Source: Candidatus Desantisbacteria bacterium CG1_02_49_89 (GTDB lineage: Bacteria > Desantisbacteria > UBA1551). From it: a stretch of 10,431 nucleotides of DNA. The DNA lies in NCBI GenBank assembly GCA_001871075.1, contig MNUP01000088.1, forward strand, positions 4,166-14,596. The letters run 5' to 3'. Shown piece after piece: positions 2,543-10,345 of the stretch; positions within the stretch are counted from its first letter, which is position 1; each line of letters opens with the position of its first letter. The notes below the pieces were generated by a model. The model worked only from the letters and a program-made list of their open reading frames with translations, had not been told where the DNA came from and ran no database searches. The position numbers and the translations under genes are program-made.

Positions 2543-3577
2543 ATGAGGGCGGCTGTATATCTGGGAAAAGAATCGATCGAAGTAAAGGACGTTGATAAGC
2601 CGAAGGTTGGAGACGGCGAGGTACTGGTCAAGGTGGAATCATGCGCTATATGCGGCACGGACATACGCACATATTTCCATGGTCACCACGCTATCAAGCC
2701 CCCGCACATACTGGGTCACGAAGTTGCGGGGACGATAGCGGAAACCGGAGCCGGGGTTGAGGGTTACAAGACCGGCCAGAAGGTCCACATGGTCACTGAA
2801 GTAGGGTGCGGAAGGTGCGGTTTCTGCAGGCAGGGAAGGCACAACCTCTGCCCTGACCTGAGGGCAATGGCATACTATTACCAGGGCGGTTTTGCGGAAT
2901 ACATACTTATCCCAAAGGAAGGCGTGATGCAGGGCAACCTTCTTGATATACCGGCTGGCCTTTCTTATGATGAGGCAACTCTTGCCGAGCCGCTTTCCTG
3001 CTGTATTAACGCGCAGGAATACCTGGGTATAACTTTCGGGGATATGGTCCTCGTTATCGGCGCAGGGCCTATCGGTTGTTTCCACGTTGAACTTGCAAGG
3101 CTTTCAGGCGCGACAAAGATCGTGCTTGCCGACATTTCCGAGGAAAGGCTCGCACTGGCAAAGAAATTCGGGGTCACAGCTCTGGTGAACAGCGCCAAGG
3201 AAGACCTGGTCGGAAGGATAAAGGAAATGACCGCGGGCTGCGGCGCGAATGTCATAATCACTGCCTGCCCGGACCCCAAAGCCCAGGAACAGGCCCTGCA
3301 GATGATAGCCCCAAGGGGAAGGATATGTTTCTTCGGAGGCCTGCCAGGCGGAAAGACTATTACCATAGAGAGTAACATCATACATTATAAGGAGTTATCC
3401 GTATTCGGGGCGTTCGCTTCATCCGCGCCCCAGTACAGGCAGGCGCTTGAGCTGCTGGCAGGCAGGAGCATAAAAGGCGCAGACATGATAACACACAAGT
3501 TCCCCCTTGAGAAGATCAGGGAGGCGCTGGAAACCGCCAGGAGCGGGAAGGGGCTTAAAGTAATAATAAATCCTTAA
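2543..3577 (+). CDS. Zinc-dependent medium-chain dehydrogenase (alcohol/sugar-alcohol type)
   Basis: This 344-residue member of the zinc-containing medium-chain dehydrogenase/reductase superfamily is closest in look to the threonine/sorbitol/galactitol-phosphate dehydrogenase branch. Such enzymes oxidise a secondary alcohol with NAD(P)+. The catalytic zinc site is intact: C37 (CxxCGTD), H59 and E60 (GHE) and E149 (AEPLSC). The structural zinc lobe has C89, C92, C95 and C103. The Rossmann motif is G173-A-G-P-I-G178, and D197 at the end of the second strand favours NAD+ over NADP+. The length is normal and the ribosome binding site is strong. Repeat-filled gaps separate it from coaX (142 nt) and from the Ig-like gene (88 nt). 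A paralogue lies at 9338-10345. The substrate cannot be told from sequence, so no gene symbol is given. Confidence 0.9.
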   Translation: MRAAVYLGKESIEVKDVDKPKVGDGEVLVKVESCAICGTDIRTYFHGHHAIKPPHILGHEVAGTIAETGAGVEGYKTGQKVHMVTEVGCGRCGFCRQGRHNLCPDLRAMAYYYQGGFAEYILIPKEGVMQGNLLDIPAGLSYDEATLAEPLSCCINAQEYLGITFGDMVLVIGAGPIGCFHVELARLSGATKIVLADISEERLALAKKFGVTALVNSAKEDLVGRIKEMTAGCGANVIITACPDPKAQEQALQMIAPRGRICFFGGLPGGKTITIESNIIHYKELSVFGAFASSAPQYRQALELLAGRSIKGADMITHKFPLEKIREALETARSGKGLKVIINP

Positions 3578-3580
3578 ATG

Positions 3581-3615
3581 CAGTGTCCAGTTGCCAGTGT
3601 CCAGTGTCCAGTTTT
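3581..3615 (+). repeat. CAGTGTC heptamer array
   Basis: Five 7-nt units run in tandem from 3581: cagtgtc, cagttgc, cagtgtc, cagtgtc and cagtttt. The array starts 3 nt after the stop codon of the first dehydrogenase. An AT-rich stretch (3616-3650) separates it from the next ribosome binding site. No convincing promoter or hairpin terminator is seen. Confidence 0.8.
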
Positions 3616-3665: not shown

Positions 3666-5135
3666 ATGTCTATGTGCAAGAGTGTCAAAGTTTTAAATTC
3701 ATTGAAGATCCTGCTGCTGACAGCAGTTATCGCACTTTCAGCGTTCCCTGACAATGCGATGGGGAAGATCGGACTGAGCGTTGAACCGGACAGGATAGAA
3801 ATCACGGGCCGCACGGGAAAAGCCTCAAAACTTATAAGGTTAACCAACACCGGCGATGAAGTGCTCAGCGTCACTCTAACCGTAAAGGAAATAGCTCAGA
3901 ACCTGAACGGGGCGTTCATTTTTTCCGACGTGCGTTTTCCCAGGTCCGCAGCCGCGTTCATCAGGCTGAACACGAATGTAGTGGAACTGTGGCCGGACCA
4001 GATCCATGAGGTTAATATCGATGTGGACGTGCCCGGTAACACGCCCGATGGCGGCCTATACGCCGCGGTCCTTGTAAACTACAAAACGATCTCAAAAGGC
4101 GAGGAAAGCGAGACCGTGATCCCGGTGATGATGGTTCTCCCGGGCAGACAGATAGTCAAGGGCGAGATATCGGAAGTATTTCTGAAGCAGTCGGCAAAGG
4201 GAGAGCCGATAGAGGTCACTACCATATTCAAGAATTCGGGAAACGTCCACTTCGCGGTTGCCGGGAAGATCAGGGTTAAGGACCAGCATGAAAAGGAGAT
4301 AGCCGCTGTCCCGGTCGAATCCGGCATCATACTTCCCGGTTACTCGGTTCAGTTGAAGGCCATCCTCAACCCCGACATGTTTTACGTGGGTTCTTACACG
4401 GCAGAAAGCGTTCTGCAGTCAGGTGCATTTTCAAATTCCAGAAGGAAGGTTTTTCAGATACTGCAGCCGCTTGAGATGGCGCAGCCCAGGATAAGCCTTG
4501 CGGAGCTTAGGGTGGCCAACGTTGAAAAATTCAAGCCGATAACATTCCAGTTCAACGTTGTAAATGAAGGCAACATGGGCCTTTTCGCCGAAAAGGGCGA
4601 CATTTCAATAACAGATAAGGCAACGGGAATTGTTGCTGCGTCCACGTCTTTCAAGGGCGGAGCAGTGCCGGTAAAAACCAGCAAGAAATACGGCGGTTCA
4701 TTCCCCGGAGGGCTCCCCACCGGAGAATATTCGATAATAGCAAAAGTGGACTGCGGCATGGGAGACCCGGCTGTCACGGAGACAACCTTTAAGGTCTATG
4801 AATTTACTCCCGTGGTTAAGGGCGAGATAACAGGTTTCAGCGTGGATATAGATGCAACAGGAATTGTTCCTTCCTTTGAAAGCAAGCTGACTTTTAAAAA
4901 TTCCGGTAACATGCCGATATATCTTGAGGGAATGATAGAGGTGAAAGATTCCACGGATGCCGTAGTTGACAAAATAAGGATAGCCAGGACAGAGTTCGGG
5001 GCAGGCATTGCGAAGGTCCTTGTTTCCAAATGGGAGTCCAACCTGCCCAGGGGCATTTACAGCGCAGGCCTGAGCGTGGCCTTTGACGAGAAGAACACCG
5101 CGAATGCGAACACGACAATAGTGGTGAATCCCTGA
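3666..5135 (+). CDS. Secreted four-domain Ig-like (beta-sandwich) protein
   Basis: This 489-residue exported protein has a basic N-terminus, a hydrophobic core at about 15-27 and a possible signal-peptidase site near residue 33. The mature part reads as four beta-sandwich domains. The first (about 34-155) resembles the N-terminal Ig-like domain of DUF916/COG1470-type surface proteins, with an opening of the form SVEPDRIEI and a later GLYAAVLVNY strand. Three further domains share an N-x-G-N turn followed by a glycine and an acidic I-x-V/I-K/T-D strand: F188-KNSGN, V299-NEGN and F410-KNSGN, about 111 residues apart. There is no C-terminal anchor, LPxTG or enzymatic motif. ATG 3666 has GAGG 7 nt upstream. 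Such folds usually mediate adhesion or protein binding at the envelope. It likely shares a transcript with the kinase gene 43 nt downstream. The domain-family assignment is by pattern, so the exact role is unknown. Confidence 0.75.
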   Translation: MSMCKSVKVLNSLKILLLTAVIALSAFPDNAMGKIGLSVEPDRIEITGRTGKASKLIRLTNTGDEVLSVTLTVKEIAQNLNGAFIFSDVRFPRSAAAFIRLNTNVVELWPDQIHEVNIDVDVPGNTPDGGLYAAVLVNYKTISKGEESETVIPVMMVLPGRQIVKGEISEVFLKQSAKGEPIEVTTIFKNSGNVHFAVAGKIRVKDQHEKEIAAVPVESGIILPGYSVQLKAILNPDMFYVGSYTAESVLQSGAFSNSRRKVFQILQPLEMAQPRISLAELRVANVEKFKPITFQFNVVNEGNMGLFAEKGDISITDKATGIVAASTSFKGGAVPVKTSKKYGGSFPGGLPTGEYSIIAKVDCGMGDPAVTETTFKVYEFTPVVKGEITGFSVDIDATGIVPSFESKLTFKNSGNMPIYLEGMIEVKDSTDAVVDKIRIARTEFGAGIAKVLVSKWESNLPRGIYSAGLSVAFDEKNTANANTTIVVNP

Positions 5136-5142
5136 TTCGTAA

Positions 5143-5168
5143 CATCGTTCATCGTGCATCGTTCATCG
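5143..5168 (+). repeat. CATCGTT heptamer array before the kinase gene
   Basis: The 7-nt units catcgtt, catcgtg, catcgtt and a partial catcg run from 5143 to 5168. They fill most of the 43-nt gap and end 4 nt before the kinase ribosome binding site. The array leaves no room for a typical promoter, which supports read-through from the Ig-like gene. Confidence 0.75.
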
Positions 5169-5178
5169 CAAAGAGGAT

Positions 5179-7914
5179 ATGATGAAAAAGATATTGATAA
5201 TTTTCTTGTTAATATCGGCAGTTGTGGGGCTGCAGCATAATATCCTGGCACAGTCGGATTTCGATGCCTGGATAAAAGGCAACGACCTGCTTGATAAGAA
5301 CAAGCCCAAGGAAGCCCTGGTATACCTTAAAAGAGCCGTTGATATCAAGCCCAATAGCGCGGATAACCAGTATTCGCTGGGGCTTTGTTATTTTACGCTG
5401 GAGGACTATGGGAAATCGCTTGAGCATTTTGAAAAAGCCGCAAGGATAGACCCGCGCGGGACGGACTACTACCTTGGCCAGTGCAGCTTGAAACTTGACA
5501 GGATAAGCGAGGCAAAGACCTACTTCAAACAGGGCCTTTCCAGGGAGGAGAAGCCTGAGCGGGTGAAGGAGATGGAGCAGCTCATCTCCAAAATAGACTC
5601 TTACAGGTCAGTGGTATCGCAGGCAATGGTCCACCTGGATGAGAAGAAATATGACCTGGCCAAGAAGGAATTCAGGCACGCCCTGACCTACCTTAAGACC
5701 AAGGAGGCCGAAGACGGCCTGGCCAGTGCGGCCAAACTTGGGGCTGAGAAGAGCAAATGGCTGGTTATAATACTGATCATTTCGGCCGTAGGTGCTGCCG
5801 GGACCGCGGTATTTTTCGTGATATTGATGCAGAAAAAGAAGAGGGAGTTCATTGAAAAGGTCCTTCCGAAAAAAATAAAGGCGGCGGTGCAGGCAAAGAA
5901 TTTTACCGAGGCGGCGGCGTCCCTTAAAAAATTGCTGGATTCCGGGGGCAAAATAACGGTCTTAAGCCCTCTTGAAGCGCTTACGCTGTACAGGGGATTG
6001 AAAGAATTTGACAGACTTTTTGAAATGGAGTTCCCCACTAACTATTTCCAGCAGTTTGTCAGGGAGCTGATAAAACTCGGAGAGCTTGCGGACGCGCGCA
6101 GGATGTATGAAAAACACAAGGCCGCAGGCGGCAAAGCGCAGGATTTCTCGGCAGGCGATTTTATGAAGATGTTCGCCGGACTGAAAGCCCTTGACGACAT
6201 GATGCAGGAGGGCGTGCCCAGCGCGTGGCTTATGGGGTACGCGGAAAAGTTTGCGGAGGAAGGCGACTATGAGAATGCCTTTAAGATGCTCAAGAATGGC
6301 ACTGTTATTAAGGACCAGGATTTCTACAAGGGCGATCCTTCCTCCAAGGACGCGCCGGTGTATAAGATAGTCGGTATTTATGAGCTCGCGGGCATGACCC
6401 CGGAAATACTGAAAATACTTTATGAGAACCCGGAAGGTTTCGCTTCATATTATTCCCAGATCGCGGAATTTATGCTCGAGAAACAAAAGTTCAGTGAAGC
6501 AGGCGACGTGCTGGATAAGAAAATAGCCTATCAGATCTCCTCCAAAAAAGACATACAGGATGTGGATTACAAATTGATGTTCTCAATCTACGAAAAACTC
6601 GGCAGGCTTGACGAGATGCAGCCCACGAAAGTCCCTGAAAAATACAGGATGAAAATAATAGAGGCTAAGCAGCAGAAGGGCAAGTTCATGGAAGCACTTG
6701 ACATGATGATGGAAAAACCCCGTTCCGAATGGAAGGAAAAGGAATTCGGGATCTGCCTGAAACTCTATGAAGGCCTTGACATGCACGACAACGTCTTCGA
6801 TCTTTACAAGCAATTCCGCGAAAGGGTGAAGCTCCTGGAATCAAAAGATGTTTACTACGAATTCGCCACGTTCTTCGAGAAGGAAGGGAAGATCAGGGAA
6901 GCGGTGGCGATATATGAGGCGTTTGTAAATGAAAAGATACTATACAGGGACGTGGACGCGCGCCTCGCGAACCTCAGGAAATCACCTGCTGAAAGGATAA
7001 CCGCTGTTTCGAAAGAACAGGTATCGGCGGTTACCGCAAAATCAATAGAGCAGGCAGCGCATGTTTCAGCCCCGGCAGGCGGAGTGGTTGAGATTACCGG
7101 AAAGATCGGCGAGATCGGGAAGGGCAGGTTCAGGGTGGGCAAGGAGATCGCGCGCAGTTTTACCGCCATGGTCTACGAGGGCCAGGGCACGCAGACGAAC
7201 AGGAAATACGCCATAAAGAAAATGAGGTTTGAGATTGCCGATGACAAGAAGGGATTCGAGAAATTTCTGGCAGAGGCAAAAATCGTGTCGAAGTTCGACC
7301 ACCCCAACATAGTGAGTCTTGTGGATGTCCTTATGGAAGGGCAGTCCTGCTTCCTTGTCTACGAATATGTGGACGGCTACACGCTTGACAAGATGATGAA
7401 GGGAAGGATGAAACTCGGGGAAACGTGGAGGATACTGGAATATGTCAGCAGCGCGGTATTTTACGCACACATTCACAACGTGGTCCACGGCGACCTTAAG
7501 CCTTCCAATATACTGATACCGAAGGGGACCAAGGCGGACACAGATCCGGACGAGACCAAGGTAATGGATTTCGGGGTGTCTTATATTGCCAAGGACATAC
7601 TGATGCTTGCCACGGGAGAGATGCCGGATAAGCCTGTTTACATGGCTCCGGAACAGCACCTGGGGTTCAACGACAGGCGCTCAGACATATTTTCTCTGGG
7701 AGTCATCCTGTACGAAATGCTTACCGGCAAAGTCCCGTTTGAAGGCCCGGATTACCTGCCGCAGAAGGAGAAGATGGCGTTCAAACCCGTAATTGACCTT
7801 GCGCCAGGCCTTCCTGACAGGATGGACAATGTTATGCAGAAGTGCCTGCAGGCAGATCCGTCGAAAAGATACGCAACGATCGAAGATTTCATGGAAGAGA
7901 TGAGGAAGGTGTAG
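5179..7914 (+). CDS. Transmembrane Ser/Thr protein kinase with N-terminal and central TPR-like repeats
   Basis: This 911-residue protein starts with a signal sequence (1-24, cleavage likely after ILA). About three TPRs follow (28-130) and a further helical region reaches 190. One membrane helix spans W194-M217, followed by the basic stretch KKKRE, so the C-terminal part should be cytoplasmic. Residues 220-600 are all-helical TPR-like repeats, then comes an Ala/Ser/Val-rich linker (about 601-645). A Hanks-type kinase domain (650-911) ends the protein: K680 (YAIKK), E699 (alpha-C), H770-G-D-L-K-P-S-N777 catalytic loop, D797-F-G, A823-P-E, SDIFSLG and a late RYAT. The glycine loop is degenerate (A658-R-S-F-T-A-M-V665) and the HRD Arg is Gly. 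ATP-dependent phosphorylation of Ser/Thr is expected. ATG 5182 is better spaced from GAGG (5173-5176) than ATG 5179. The WD40 gene follows after 3 nt. Confidence 0.9.
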   Translation: MMKKILIIFLLISAVVGLQHNILAQSDFDAWIKGNDLLDKNKPKEALVYLKRAVDIKPNSADNQYSLGLCYFTLEDYGKSLEHFEKAARIDPRGTDYYLGQCSLKLDRISEAKTYFKQGLSREEKPERVKEMEQLISKIDSYRSVVSQAMVHLDEKKYDLAKKEFRHALTYLKTKEAEDGLASAAKLGAEKSKWLVIILIISAVGAAGTAVFFVILMQKKKREFIEKVLPKKIKAAVQAKNFTEAAASLKKLLDSGGKITVLSPLEALTLYRGLKEFDRLFEMEFPTNYFQQFVRELIKLGELADARRMYEKHKAAGGKAQDFSAGDFMKMFAGLKALDDMMQEGVPSAWLMGYAEKFAEEGDYENAFKMLKNGTVIKDQDFYKGDPSSKDAPVYKIVGIYELAGMTPEILKILYENPEGFASYYSQIAEFMLEKQKFSEAGDVLDKKIAYQISSKKDIQDVDYKLMFSIYEKLGRLDEMQPTKVPEKYRMKIIEAKQQKGKFMEALDMMMEKPRSEWKEKEFGICLKLYEGLDMHDNVFDLYKQFRERVKLLESKDVYYEFATFFEKEGKIREAVAIYEAFVNEKILYRDVDARLANLRKSPAERITAVSKEQVSAVTAKSIEQAAHVSAPAGGVVEITGKIGEIGKGRFRVGKEIARSFTAMVYEGQGTQTNRKYAIKKMRFEIADDKKGFEKFLAEAKIVSKFDHPNIVSLVDVLMEGQSCFLVYEYVDGYTLDKMMKGRMKLGETWRILEYVSSAVFYAHIHNVVHGDLKPSNILIPKGTKADTDPDETKVMDFGVSYIAKDILMLATGEMPDKPVYMAPEQHLGFNDRRSDIFSLGVILYEMLTGKVPFEGPDYLPQKEKMAFKPVIDLAPGLPDRMDNVMQKCLQADPSKRYATIEDFMEEMRKV

Positions 7915-7917
7915 CAA

Positions 7918-9180
7918 ATGAAGATAATAAAAGTCAAAAGTCAAAAGGCTCCGCCCGTCTTTTCAGCGGGCGAGACCTCGCCCAATCGTATGGATTGGGC
8001 GGGAAATTGCAAATTGTCCCAAAGGGATCCCTTCGGGACAAAACTTAAAATCCTTGTTTTAATTTGCGTTGTTTTGTGCGTATGCGCGCAGGCGCCTGCG
8101 GTCGCGCAACTGAACACATTCAGGCACAGCGGTTGGGTGGAATCACTGGATTTCTCCCCGGATTCTAAATATATTATTTCTGCGAGTAACGACAGGACCG
8201 CGAAGGTCTGGCGCGTGAGCGACGGCCAGCGCGTCGGTAACATAACCGGCCACATCGGACCTGTTTATTCGGCGGTTTATTCTCCGAATGGTTCTTTGAT
8301 GGCAACCGGCGGATACGACAAAACGATCAAAATATGGAGCGCGGACAGCGGTCAGTGCCTGAAAAACATAAAGGCGCACACCGCCTGGGTCCAGGCATTG
8401 AAATTTTCCCGTGACGGCAAGATGCTTGTTTCCGGAAGCGGGGACAAGACGGTGAAGGTGCGCAGGGCAAGCGACGGGGAAAATATAAAGTCATTCCATG
8501 GGCACCAGGCAAGCGTGTATTCGGTTGATTTTTCACCCGACGGCAAACTGGTTATTTCTTCGGGGGCGGACAGAACTATAAAGGTATGGAAGATAAGCGA
8601 TGGCTCCTGCGCAGCGACTCTTCAAGGCCACACGGGTAACGTTTATTCGGCGCAGTTTTCCCCGGACGGCAAGACTATAGTTTCCGGAAGCGGGGACAAG
8701 ACGATCAGGATCTGGCGCGCAAGCGACGGCTTGTGCCTGAAGACCCTGCCGGGGCATACAGGCAGCGTTTACTGCGTCAGCTGTTCGCCCGACGGTAAAT
8801 ATATAATTTCAGCAAGCGCGGATAAAACTGCCAGGATCTGGCGCACGGACACCGGTGAATGCGTAAAGACGGTACAGGGGCAGGCGGGGAAGGTTTACGC
8901 GGCGTGTTTCTCGCCTGATGGAAAATACCTTGCAACAGGCGGAGAGGACGAAATAGTAAGGGTGTGGAACACACCCTGGGCAGAAGAGGAGCGTGAAGCG
9001 CTTTTCCAGAAATATTATAATTCAGGTCTGAGATACCTTTCGTCCGCAGGCAGCAACCGGGATAACTATTTAAAGGCTATAGAGGAATTCAGAAGGGCAC
9101 TGAACTACAAGGACAGCAGTGAGGTGAGGCAGAAGATTTCCAGGGCGCAGGAAGAATACAAGCGCAGCTTCAGAAGATAA
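7918..9180 (+). CDS. Exported seven-bladed WD40 protein with TPR-like tail
   Basis: This is a 420-residue protein. Residues 65-362 hold seven WD40 repeats of 42 residues, with blade starts near 65, 111, 153, 195, 237, 279 and 321, most with GH, an FSPDGK turn and a D-K-T-x-K-I/V-W strand. This is enough for a closed seven-bladed propeller, a protein-interaction platform. The tail (about 365-420) is helical and TPR-like. A signal peptide hydrophobic core lies at 44-56 with likely cleavage after AVA63, so the propeller should be extracytoplasmic. The n-region ahead of it is unusually long, and residues about 6-40 are encoded by heptamer and palindrome repeats. ATG 7918 is preceded by GGAAGG at 7904-7909 inside the end of the kinase gene. 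ATG 7990 is a possible alternative without a ribosome binding site. The 3-nt gap to the kinase gene implies co-translation and a shared role. Confidence 0.9.
   Translation: MKIIKVKSQKAPPVFSAGETSPNRMDWAGNCKLSQRDPFGTKLKILVLICVVLCVCAQAPAVAQLNTFRHSGWVESLDFSPDSKYIISASNDRTAKVWRVSDGQRVGNITGHIGPVYSAVYSPNGSLMATGGYDKTIKIWSADSGQCLKNIKAHTAWVQALKFSRDGKMLVSGSGDKTVKVRRASDGENIKSFHGHQASVYSVDFSPDGKLVISSGADRTIKVWKISDGSCAATLQGHTGNVYSAQFSPDGKTIVSGSGDKTIRIWRASDGLCLKTLPGHTGSVYCVSCSPDGKYIISASADKTARIWRTDTGECVKTVQGQAGKVYAACFSPDGKYLATGGEDEIVRVWNTPWAEEEREALFQKYYNSGLRYLSSAGSNRDNYLKAIEEFRRALNYKDSSEVRQKISRAQEEYKRSFRR
7931..8041. repeat. In-frame heptamer and palindrome cluster inside the WD40 gene
   Basis: AAGTCAA heptamers (7931-7947) run into a chain of inverted repeats. 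These are CGCCCG/CGGGCG (7952-7957, 7967-7972), GGGCGAG/CTCGCCC (7968-7974, 7977-7983), CGCCCAATC/GATTGGGCG (7979-7987, 7993-8001, 5-nt loop) and TTGTCCC/GGGACAA (8014-8020, 8035-8041). The last encloses the 12-base palindrome AAGGGATCCCTT (8022-8033). The whole cluster is open in the WD40 frame and is translated if ATG 7918 is used. Overlapping arms mean that alternative hairpins compete. Confidence 0.85.
8428..8703 (+). repeat. Near-recent duplication between WD40 blades 3 and 5
   Basis: A 24-base stretch at 8428-8451 recurs identically at 8680-8703, exactly 252 nt (two 126-nt blade units) apart. It encodes VSGSGDKT in both blades. Exact identity at synonymous positions points to duplication in two-blade steps or to gene conversion. 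Confidence 0.7.
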
Positions 9181-9181
9181 A

Positions 9182-9322
9182 TCGTGTCAGAGTGTCAACG
9201 TGTCAACGTGTCAACGCAAATGCATAAGGATTTTTTATTTAAAGTTGTTGAACTGCTTAATTTTCAAGTAAGCTTACAATAATTCCATGTTGTTGCGTTG
9301 ACACGCTGATACGTTGATACGC
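9182..9322. repeat. Two octamer arrays in inverted orientation
   Basis: The left array (9182-9213) has tcgtgtca, gagtgtca, acgtgtca and acgtgtca and ends in acgcaa. The right array (9291-9322) carries the same family on the minus strand (gcgtatca, acgtatca, gcgtgtca, acgcaaca). They share a perfect 13-bp inverted repeat, CGTGTCAACGCAA at 9207-9219 and its complement at 9293-9305, with a longer imperfect match. The 73-nt AT-rich spacer (9220-9292) contains TACAAT at 9275-9280 as a possible -10 box, but I see no matching -35 at normal spacing. The region lies between the WD40 stop codon and the second dehydrogenase. Confidence 0.8.
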
Positions 9323-9326
9323 TTTT

Positions 9327-9332
9327 GGAGGG
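9327..9332 (+). promoter_or_regulatory. Ribosome binding site GGAGGG fixing a GTG start
   Basis: A strong Shine-Dalgarno match 5 nt before GTG 9338. It decides this start over the earlier in-frame TTG at 9314, which lies within the octamer array. Confidence 0.8.
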
Positions 9333-9337
9333 TATTC

Positions 9338-10345
9338 GTGCAGGCGGTCGTTTTTGAAGCACCCGGTAAAATAAACATTAAAGACATACCTGAGCCGCAG
9401 GCCGGAAAGGAAGATATTCTTGTAAAGGTAAAGGCCGCGGGGCTTTGCGGCACGGACCTGCACGTTTACAAAGGTGATTTCATAGCCTCTTATCCCATAG
9501 TCCCGGGGCACGAGTTCAGCGGGGAGATAATCAGCGCCGGCGCTGACGTGGAAGGATTCAAGCCGGGGGACAGGGTGTGCGTGGACCCCTGTGTTTACTG
9601 CGGGAAATGCGATTTTTGTAAATCGGACCGGGAAAATTTCTGCAGGGATTTCCGGGCGTACGGCCTGCATTTCAACGGCGGTTTTGAAGAGCTTGTCTCG
9701 GTCAGCTACAGGAACGCCTACCAGATAGGGAGCCTTTCATTTGAGGAAGGCGCGATGATCGAGCCTCTTTCCTGCGCCATACACGGGATAAAGAGGATAG
9801 GCCTGCGGGCAGGCGATGAAGTCCTGATATTCGGCTGCGGCCCCATAGGCCTGATGCTGATGCAGGTGTGCAAAAAAAGCGGTGCGTCCAGGGTCATAAT
9901 GGCGGATGTCTCGCGGAAGAAGCTCGAAACGGCCGAAAGGCTTGGAGCCGGCGCAGCGCTTTTGAATAACGGCGGTTTTGAAGCCGGTTTAAAGAAACTT
10001 TTTCCTTTCGGGGCGGACGTTGTAATAGATGCCACAGGTATTCCGCAGGTTGTGCAGAATATGTCCGCGCACGTGAAAGACGCGGGCAAGCTCCTTTTCT
10101 TCGGGGTCTGCCCGCCTGATTCCAGGATAAGCATAAATCCTTACGAGGTTTACAAGAGGGAGCTTACGATCTACGGAACCTTCAGCCTACTCCACGATTT
10201 CCCGTCTGCCATCAAACTCCTACAATCCGGTTCGATCGACGTCAGGTCTCTTGCCTCCCACCAGTTCAGCCTCAGCGAGTTTATGCAGGGTTTCAACCTC
10301 ATGCTGGAACACGGCGATTTCCTTAAGATCCTTATCAAACCATAA
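9338..10345 (+). CDS. Zinc-dependent medium-chain dehydrogenase (second paralogue)
   Basis: This 335-residue zinc-containing medium-chain dehydrogenase is of the same class as the gene at 2543-3577. Catalytic zinc site: C37 (LCGTD), H58 and E59 (GHE) and E142 (IEPLSC). Structural zinc lobe: C88, C91, C94 and C102. The Rossmann motif is G166-C-G-P-I-G171, with D190 after the second strand suggesting NAD+. The protein begins MQAVVFEAPGK, typical of the family, which together with the ribosome binding site supports GTG 9338. Oxidation of a polyol or amino-alcohol such as a sorbitol- or threonine-like substrate is plausible but not shown. The gene is separated from the WD40 gene by 157 nt of inverted octamer arrays, so it may be a separate transcription unit. 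No sugar kinase, transporter or regulator is visible nearby to indicate a pathway. Confidence 0.9.
   Translation: MQAVVFEAPGKINIKDIPEPQAGKEDILVKVKAAGLCGTDLHVYKGDFIASYPIVPGHEFSGEIISAGADVEGFKPGDRVCVDPCVYCGKCDFCKSDRENFCRDFRAYGLHFNGGFEELVSVSYRNAYQIGSLSFEEGAMIEPLSCAIHGIKRIGLRAGDEVLIFGCGPIGLMLMQVCKKSGASRVIMADVSRKKLETAERLGAGAALLNNGGFEAGLKKLFPFGADVVIDATGIPQVVQNMSAHVKDAGKLLFFGVCPPDSRISINPYEVYKRELTIYGTFSLLHDFPSAIKLLQSGSIDVRSLASHQFSLSEFMQGFNLMLEHGDFLKILIKP

Follow-up and report, generated by a model that had tools for sequence, protein, structure and literature searches.

Candidatus Desantisbacteria bacterium CG1_02_49_89 carries three adjacent genes for an Ig-like protein, a membrane kinase and a WD40 protein, and the question is whether their products act together in the cell envelope or whether the genes are neighbors by chance. 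We analyzed the whole stretch of 10,431 nucleotides in which they lie (the window; contig positions 4166-14596), taken from a metagenome-type assembly of 2.48 Mb that is 93.5% complete. The reading we tentatively prefer is that the trio encodes an extracytoplasmic-sensor kinase split over separate proteins; what we infer here is their physical interaction, in which direction the signal runs, what the ligand is and which substrate the kinase acts on.

Gene order and genomic setting

The ORF calls place the gene of the Ig-like protein at 3666-5135 (489 aa), the kinase gene at 5179-7914 (911 aa) and the gene of the WD40 protein at 7918-9180 (420 aa), all on the + strand and with gaps of 43 nt and 3 nt, which bears out the adjacency, lengths and spacing described in an earlier sequence-only reading of this DNA. 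Every gene of the window lies on this strand, in the order PHP-domain protein, BirA, CoaX, alcohol dehydrogenase, the trio and a second alcohol dehydrogenase. Because the trio is thus part of a longer + strand run which includes BirA, CoaX and two alcohol dehydrogenases, the mere fact that its genes are adjacent says little in favor of a three-gene unit. The repeats found in each gap further indicate that the spacing is not tightly maintained. Both observations count against a split kinase.

It is quite possible that the neighborhood arose by chance. The kinase could be complete in itself, as a TPR receptor of the PknS type, with the exported WD40 and Ig-like proteins being unrelated envelope proteins encoded in the same run, whose strand and spacing are common to the metabolic genes. 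Two observations on the genome point towards a split kinase instead. Hydropathy analysis finds an N-terminal hydrophobic segment in all three proteins (residues 9-27 of the Ig-like protein, 5-23 of the kinase and 45-63 of the WD40 protein), compared to none of the other window genes. Furthermore, the genome has a single WD40 gene and just two Pkinase genes, and the WD40 gene lies next to one of these; that it adjoins a kinase predicted to face the same compartment is an argument against mere chance.

The surroundings of the trio show some features of their own. BirA is directly followed by the type III pantothenate kinase CoaX (763-2400), a pairing which is also known as a fusion (NF009862). 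The two alcohol dehydrogenases on both sides of the trio (2543-3577 and 9314-10345) are threonine/sorbitol-dehydrogenase-like and share 32% identity. Nearly every gap around the trio holds short micro-repeats, tandem or inverted (3581-3614, 5140-5168, 9183-9219, 9289-9325); as an example, CGTGTCAA units form the arms of an inverted repeat 3' of the WD40 gene.

Domain organization and predicted topology

The kinase is organized as a receptor-type Ser/Thr kinase, with a predicted signal peptide (5-23), TPRs (~30-185), a transmembrane helix (197-215), helical repeats (~220-640) and the kinase domain (644-911). The TPR domain (residues 25-196; 5251-5766, + strand) is matched by TPR_2 in four stretches with an E-value of 1.2e-19 and may hold up to four TPR units, the Pfam TPRs lying at about 33-118. 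The transmembrane helix (5767-5823, + strand) has a hydropathy of 2.6, and the 20 residues that follow it carry a net charge of +6. Following the positive-inside rule, this charge places residues ~25-196 outside and the remainder of the protein inside in the predicted topology. The sequence-only reading had described a membrane kinase with extracytoplasmic TPRs and a cytoplasmic kinase domain, and the profile matches, the helix and the charge are in agreement with it. A TPR domain outside combined with a kinase inside also speaks for a split kinase.

Regarding the kinase domain (7108-7911, + strand), the Pkinase profile matches residues 662-899 with an E-value of 1.8e-41 and 142.8 bits, well above the curated cut-off of 31.7, so that it can be counted as a Hanks-type Ser/Thr kinase. 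The catalytic set is complete and comprises the Lys (AIKK 678), the alphaC Glu (AEAK 698), HGDLKPSN 770 with its Asn, DFG 797 and APE 823. The glycine-rich loop GxGxxG is replaced by EIARSFTAMVY (A-R-S-F-T-A), with the small residues A and S, and the HRD position reads HGD, which makes the kinase non-RD. A degenerate glycine loop is atypical, though known in some active kinases. Activity of this non-RD kinase with its unusual loop is likely. The nearest solved structures to the kinase domain are PknA (E 1e-33), StkP and PknB. In a profile search residues 220-640 gave weak matches of the TPR/HAT type. Structure models computed without an alignment reached a pLDDT of 36 and 39 for the Ig-like protein and the kinase, and the confidence of both was too low for a fold search.

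The Ig-like protein consists of a signal peptide (~9-27), an N-terminal domain (~35-158) and three diverged Ig-like repeats (~161-489). By sequence it appears to contain four all-beta domains, which together with the hydrophobic segment fits the secreted multi-Ig-like protein claimed before. Domains 2 to 4 are diverged copies of one repeat; domains 2 and 4 share 39% identity (E 8e-7), and the similarity of domains 2 and 3 is weak (E 0.015). The low-confidence model is mostly beta besides the signal helix. The protein is otherwise mostly undescribed: DUF7507 reaches 30.9 bits compared to a cut-off of 27 bits, with no single significant stretch in Pfam, and a PDB search returned no match.

Distant homologues of the Ig-like protein with 25-30% identity were found in four of 191 other genomes (L101-L104), two of them with a sub-threshold match to WxLIP_PGBD, a domain proposed to bind peptidoglycan (PMC10599100). 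As a lead only, the N-terminal domain (~35-158) may be distantly similar to this domain; Pfam gives no WxLIP_PGBD match in the window protein itself. The WxLIP family (DUF916/DUF3324, PMC10599100) likewise has extracytoplasmic Ig-like domains, its WxLIP_PGBD being followed by HBD and a transmembrane helix and its genes adjoining WxL genes, whereas the window protein has no WxL proteins nearby and no C-terminal transmembrane helix. In one of the other genomes two WxLIP-like Ig proteins, two secretin-type genes and small exported proteins form one gene run (L101:5682-13333).

These homologues adjoin envelope genes, namely secretin genes (L101) or CHU_C/OmpA-type genes (L103), and thereby lend some weight to another explanation, which we consider unlikely. 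The Ig-like protein and the WD40 protein with its tail could act as a periplasmic scaffold or chaperone of a surface or secretion structure, with the kinase regulating its assembly. There is a precedent in PorE (PG1058) of Porphyromonas gingivalis, a periplasmic TPR and propeller scaffold of the T9SS (PMC5053529). As an exported TPR and beta-propeller protein PorE resembles the WD40 protein with its putatively TPR-like tail, but it is a lipoprotein with an OmpA-like domain that serves the T9SS without a kinase. A further hint is the only FHA protein of the genome, an FHA-TM protein with a TPR-like C-terminus, which is encoded on another contig beside T2SSF/Tad-like genes (L236:3878-4759). On the other hand, the window contains no secretion or pilus genes, and the Ig-like homology is distant. 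The FHA protein is a candidate phosphopeptide reader and no more; a match to PP2C_2 phosphatases is absent from the genome.

The WD40 protein combines a predicted signal peptide with an extended n-region, seven blades (residues 62-355) and a helical tail (356-420). Pfam finds WD40 in seven stretches (E 4.4e-88), and each blade is exactly 42 aa long with a mean pairwise identity of 41%, in agreement with a seven-bladed propeller. The tail of 65 residues shows TPR similarity below threshold only. The earlier description as an exported WD40 protein with a TPR-like tail therefore stands for the propeller and the hydrophobic segment, and is left in doubt for the tail. Homology of the tail to the kinase TPRs was considered and rejected, as the similarity comprises 24 residues (E 0.006) and reflects a generic TPR-like motif only. 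A cytoplasmic location of the protein is disfavored by the hydrophobic core with its A-V-A cleavage-like motif.

The extended n-region coincides with a dispersed palindromic repeat without strand assignment (7938-8051), which has about 40 partial copies genome-wide, those inspected being mostly intergenic, and encodes WD40 residues ~8-45 in frame. It appears to have been inserted there, because the flanking parts MKIIKVK and LKILVLICVVLCVCAQAPAVAQ would form a standard signal peptide if joined. Given these repeat-derived residues, the gap of 3 nt between the kinase and WD40 genes is partly deceptive. A Shine-Dalgarno-like AGGAAGG (7900-7910, + strand) lies in the last kinase codons 5' of ATG 7918, and all other in-frame start codons 5' of the hydrophobic core are inside the repeat. 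For these reasons translation probably starts at 7918 and is coupled to the kinase. A WD40 start whose putative Shine-Dalgarno sequence lies within the 3' end of the kinase gene would favor a split kinase, and the co-translation it suggests speaks against chance neighbors.

The repeat also raises the question of decay. About 38 repeat-derived residues separate the basic start MKIIKVK from the hydrophobic core, and this might have disabled export or expression of the WD40 protein and left the kinase without its partner. We consider this very improbable, since the insertion preserves the reading frame, the ORF is unbroken and the seven blades have kept their exact spacing of 42 aa. Long n-regions of signal peptides can still permit export.

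Occurrence in other genomes

The trio turned up in no other genome of the collections searched, which is an argument against a split kinase and in favor of chance neighbors. In the genome collection searched the phylum is represented by one other species only, and close relatives are absent from the collections. From this sole relative (G001, 87% complete) the helical region of the kinase, the Ig-like protein and any WD40 match are missing. With the transmembrane and helical region of the kinase as query there was no match in 385 other genomes at an E-value of 1e-6, the protein itself being the only match among 386, so these genomes include no true orthologue of it. Of two contig scans with kinase queries, one had no matches and the other found mostly Firmicutes PASTA-type kinases and no trio.

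Kinases of about 650-900 aa in other genomes (L041-L057) align with the end of the helical region and the kinase domain. Their neighbors vary and include genes for RuvB, LipA-like, pentapeptide and PP2C proteins, so comparable kinases elsewhere adjoin unrelated genes, as expected for a chance neighborhood. At none of 18 kinase loci checked in other genomes was a WD40 gene found as neighbor, which counts against a split kinase. Near helical-repeat kinases of two genomes we noticed long genes (L044:5391-7163 and L045:5116-6840) that possibly represent a recurrent pair; pentapeptide repeats were confirmed in the L045 gene, and the L044 gene has a similar-looking start only.

Of 38 solo WD40 genes with at least five blades in 40 foreign loci, 24 have a hydrophobic segment 5' of the propeller. 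A single one of the 38, whose product is not exported, has a kinase gene no more than three genes away. It is thus nothing unusual for a solo WD40 protein to be exported, usually away from kinases, and a kinase partner nearby is no general rule. These counts weigh against a widespread system and leave a lineage-specific one unaffected.

Putative mechanism and comparison with known systems

Returning to a receptor kinase split over adjacent genes, one may picture the following mechanism. The exported WD40 propeller would sense or scaffold something in the envelope, and the Ig-like protein, if bound to the cell wall, would perhaps share this role. The exported partner would dock on the outward TPR domain of the kinase, which could alter the oligomeric state across the single transmembrane helix and thereby switch the inward non-RD Hanks-type kinase, while the helical repeats of the kinase might present substrates. 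The narrower version, in which a diffusible exported WD40 protein is the ligand or co-receptor of the TPR receptor kinase and the wall-bound Ig-like protein the third part, is rather doubtful. The ligand/receptor/kinase arrangement suggested by the sequence-only reading is reasonable by analogy, but no second genome in the collections searched bears it out.

Few binding targets are known for the TPR and WD40 domains that bacterial kinases expose outside the cytoplasm. If the split kinase is true, a version with adjacent genes would supply a receptor kinase with candidate partners that are small and soluble, and hence permit a direct binding test. If the three proteins do not interact, what remains is an ordinary receptor kinase with two undescribed envelope proteins next to it.

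Some known systems are related to the trio through the kinase domain only. Anti-phage kinase systems (MADS, PD-T4-6) were rejected, as the match is to a generic kinase domain and MADS or other partner genes are absent from the window. Kinases of the PASTA type such as PknA, PknB and StkP are the nearest kinase-domain sequences with a solved structure, but the window kinase has no PASTA repeats; PknB_PASTA_kin gives 216.1 bits compared to a cut-off of 450, with the kinase part alone matched.

Closer analogues are found among single-chain kinases. The sequence-only reading had contrasted the separate WD40 protein with fusions of WD40 domains and kinases in one cytoplasmic chain. In this trio the two are indeed separate ORFs, but the contrast is wrong in general: in five of eight kinase-WD40 fusions in the fetched loci (L122, L124, L143, L164, L198) a transmembrane segment lies between both parts, in the order kinase-TM-WD40, and for membrane Ser/Thr kinases of Planctomycetota a survey predicts mostly periplasmic WD40 and TPR parts, with the kinases in the cytoplasm (PMC11032199). 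The latter are like the trio in having WD40/TPR outside and the kinase inside, and differ in that their WD40 array extends the kinase chain at its C-terminus, compared to a separate exported propeller and N-terminal TPRs here. Another single chain of 1438 aa (L050:7672-11988) has an N-terminal propeller outside, a transmembrane helix, TPRs and a C-terminal kinase as in the trio, but its propeller is of the FG-GAP/PQQ type and part of the chain, whereas that of the trio is a separate WD40 protein. By analogy these single chains, which join an outside propeller to an inside kinase, would support a split kinase.

PknS of Xanthomonas citri, in which the periplasmic TPR-containing region was shown experimentally to be functionally required (PMC13147305), would support it likewise. 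A cytoplasmic Hanks-type kinase, one transmembrane helix and extracytoplasmic TPRs are common to PknS and, by predicted topology, to the window kinase. The order in PknS is kinase-TM-TPR, with an N-terminal kinase, a C-terminal TPR region and its own sigma-factor target (ECF43); here it is reversed to TPR-TM-helical repeats-kinase, with exported neighbors and no sigma-factor gene in the window. In view of the five fusions, the Planctomycetota kinases, PknS and the L050 protein, a propeller or TPR domain outside with a kinase inside is a known kind of receptor, and a separate exported WD40 protein beside a TPR kinase is a variant of it.
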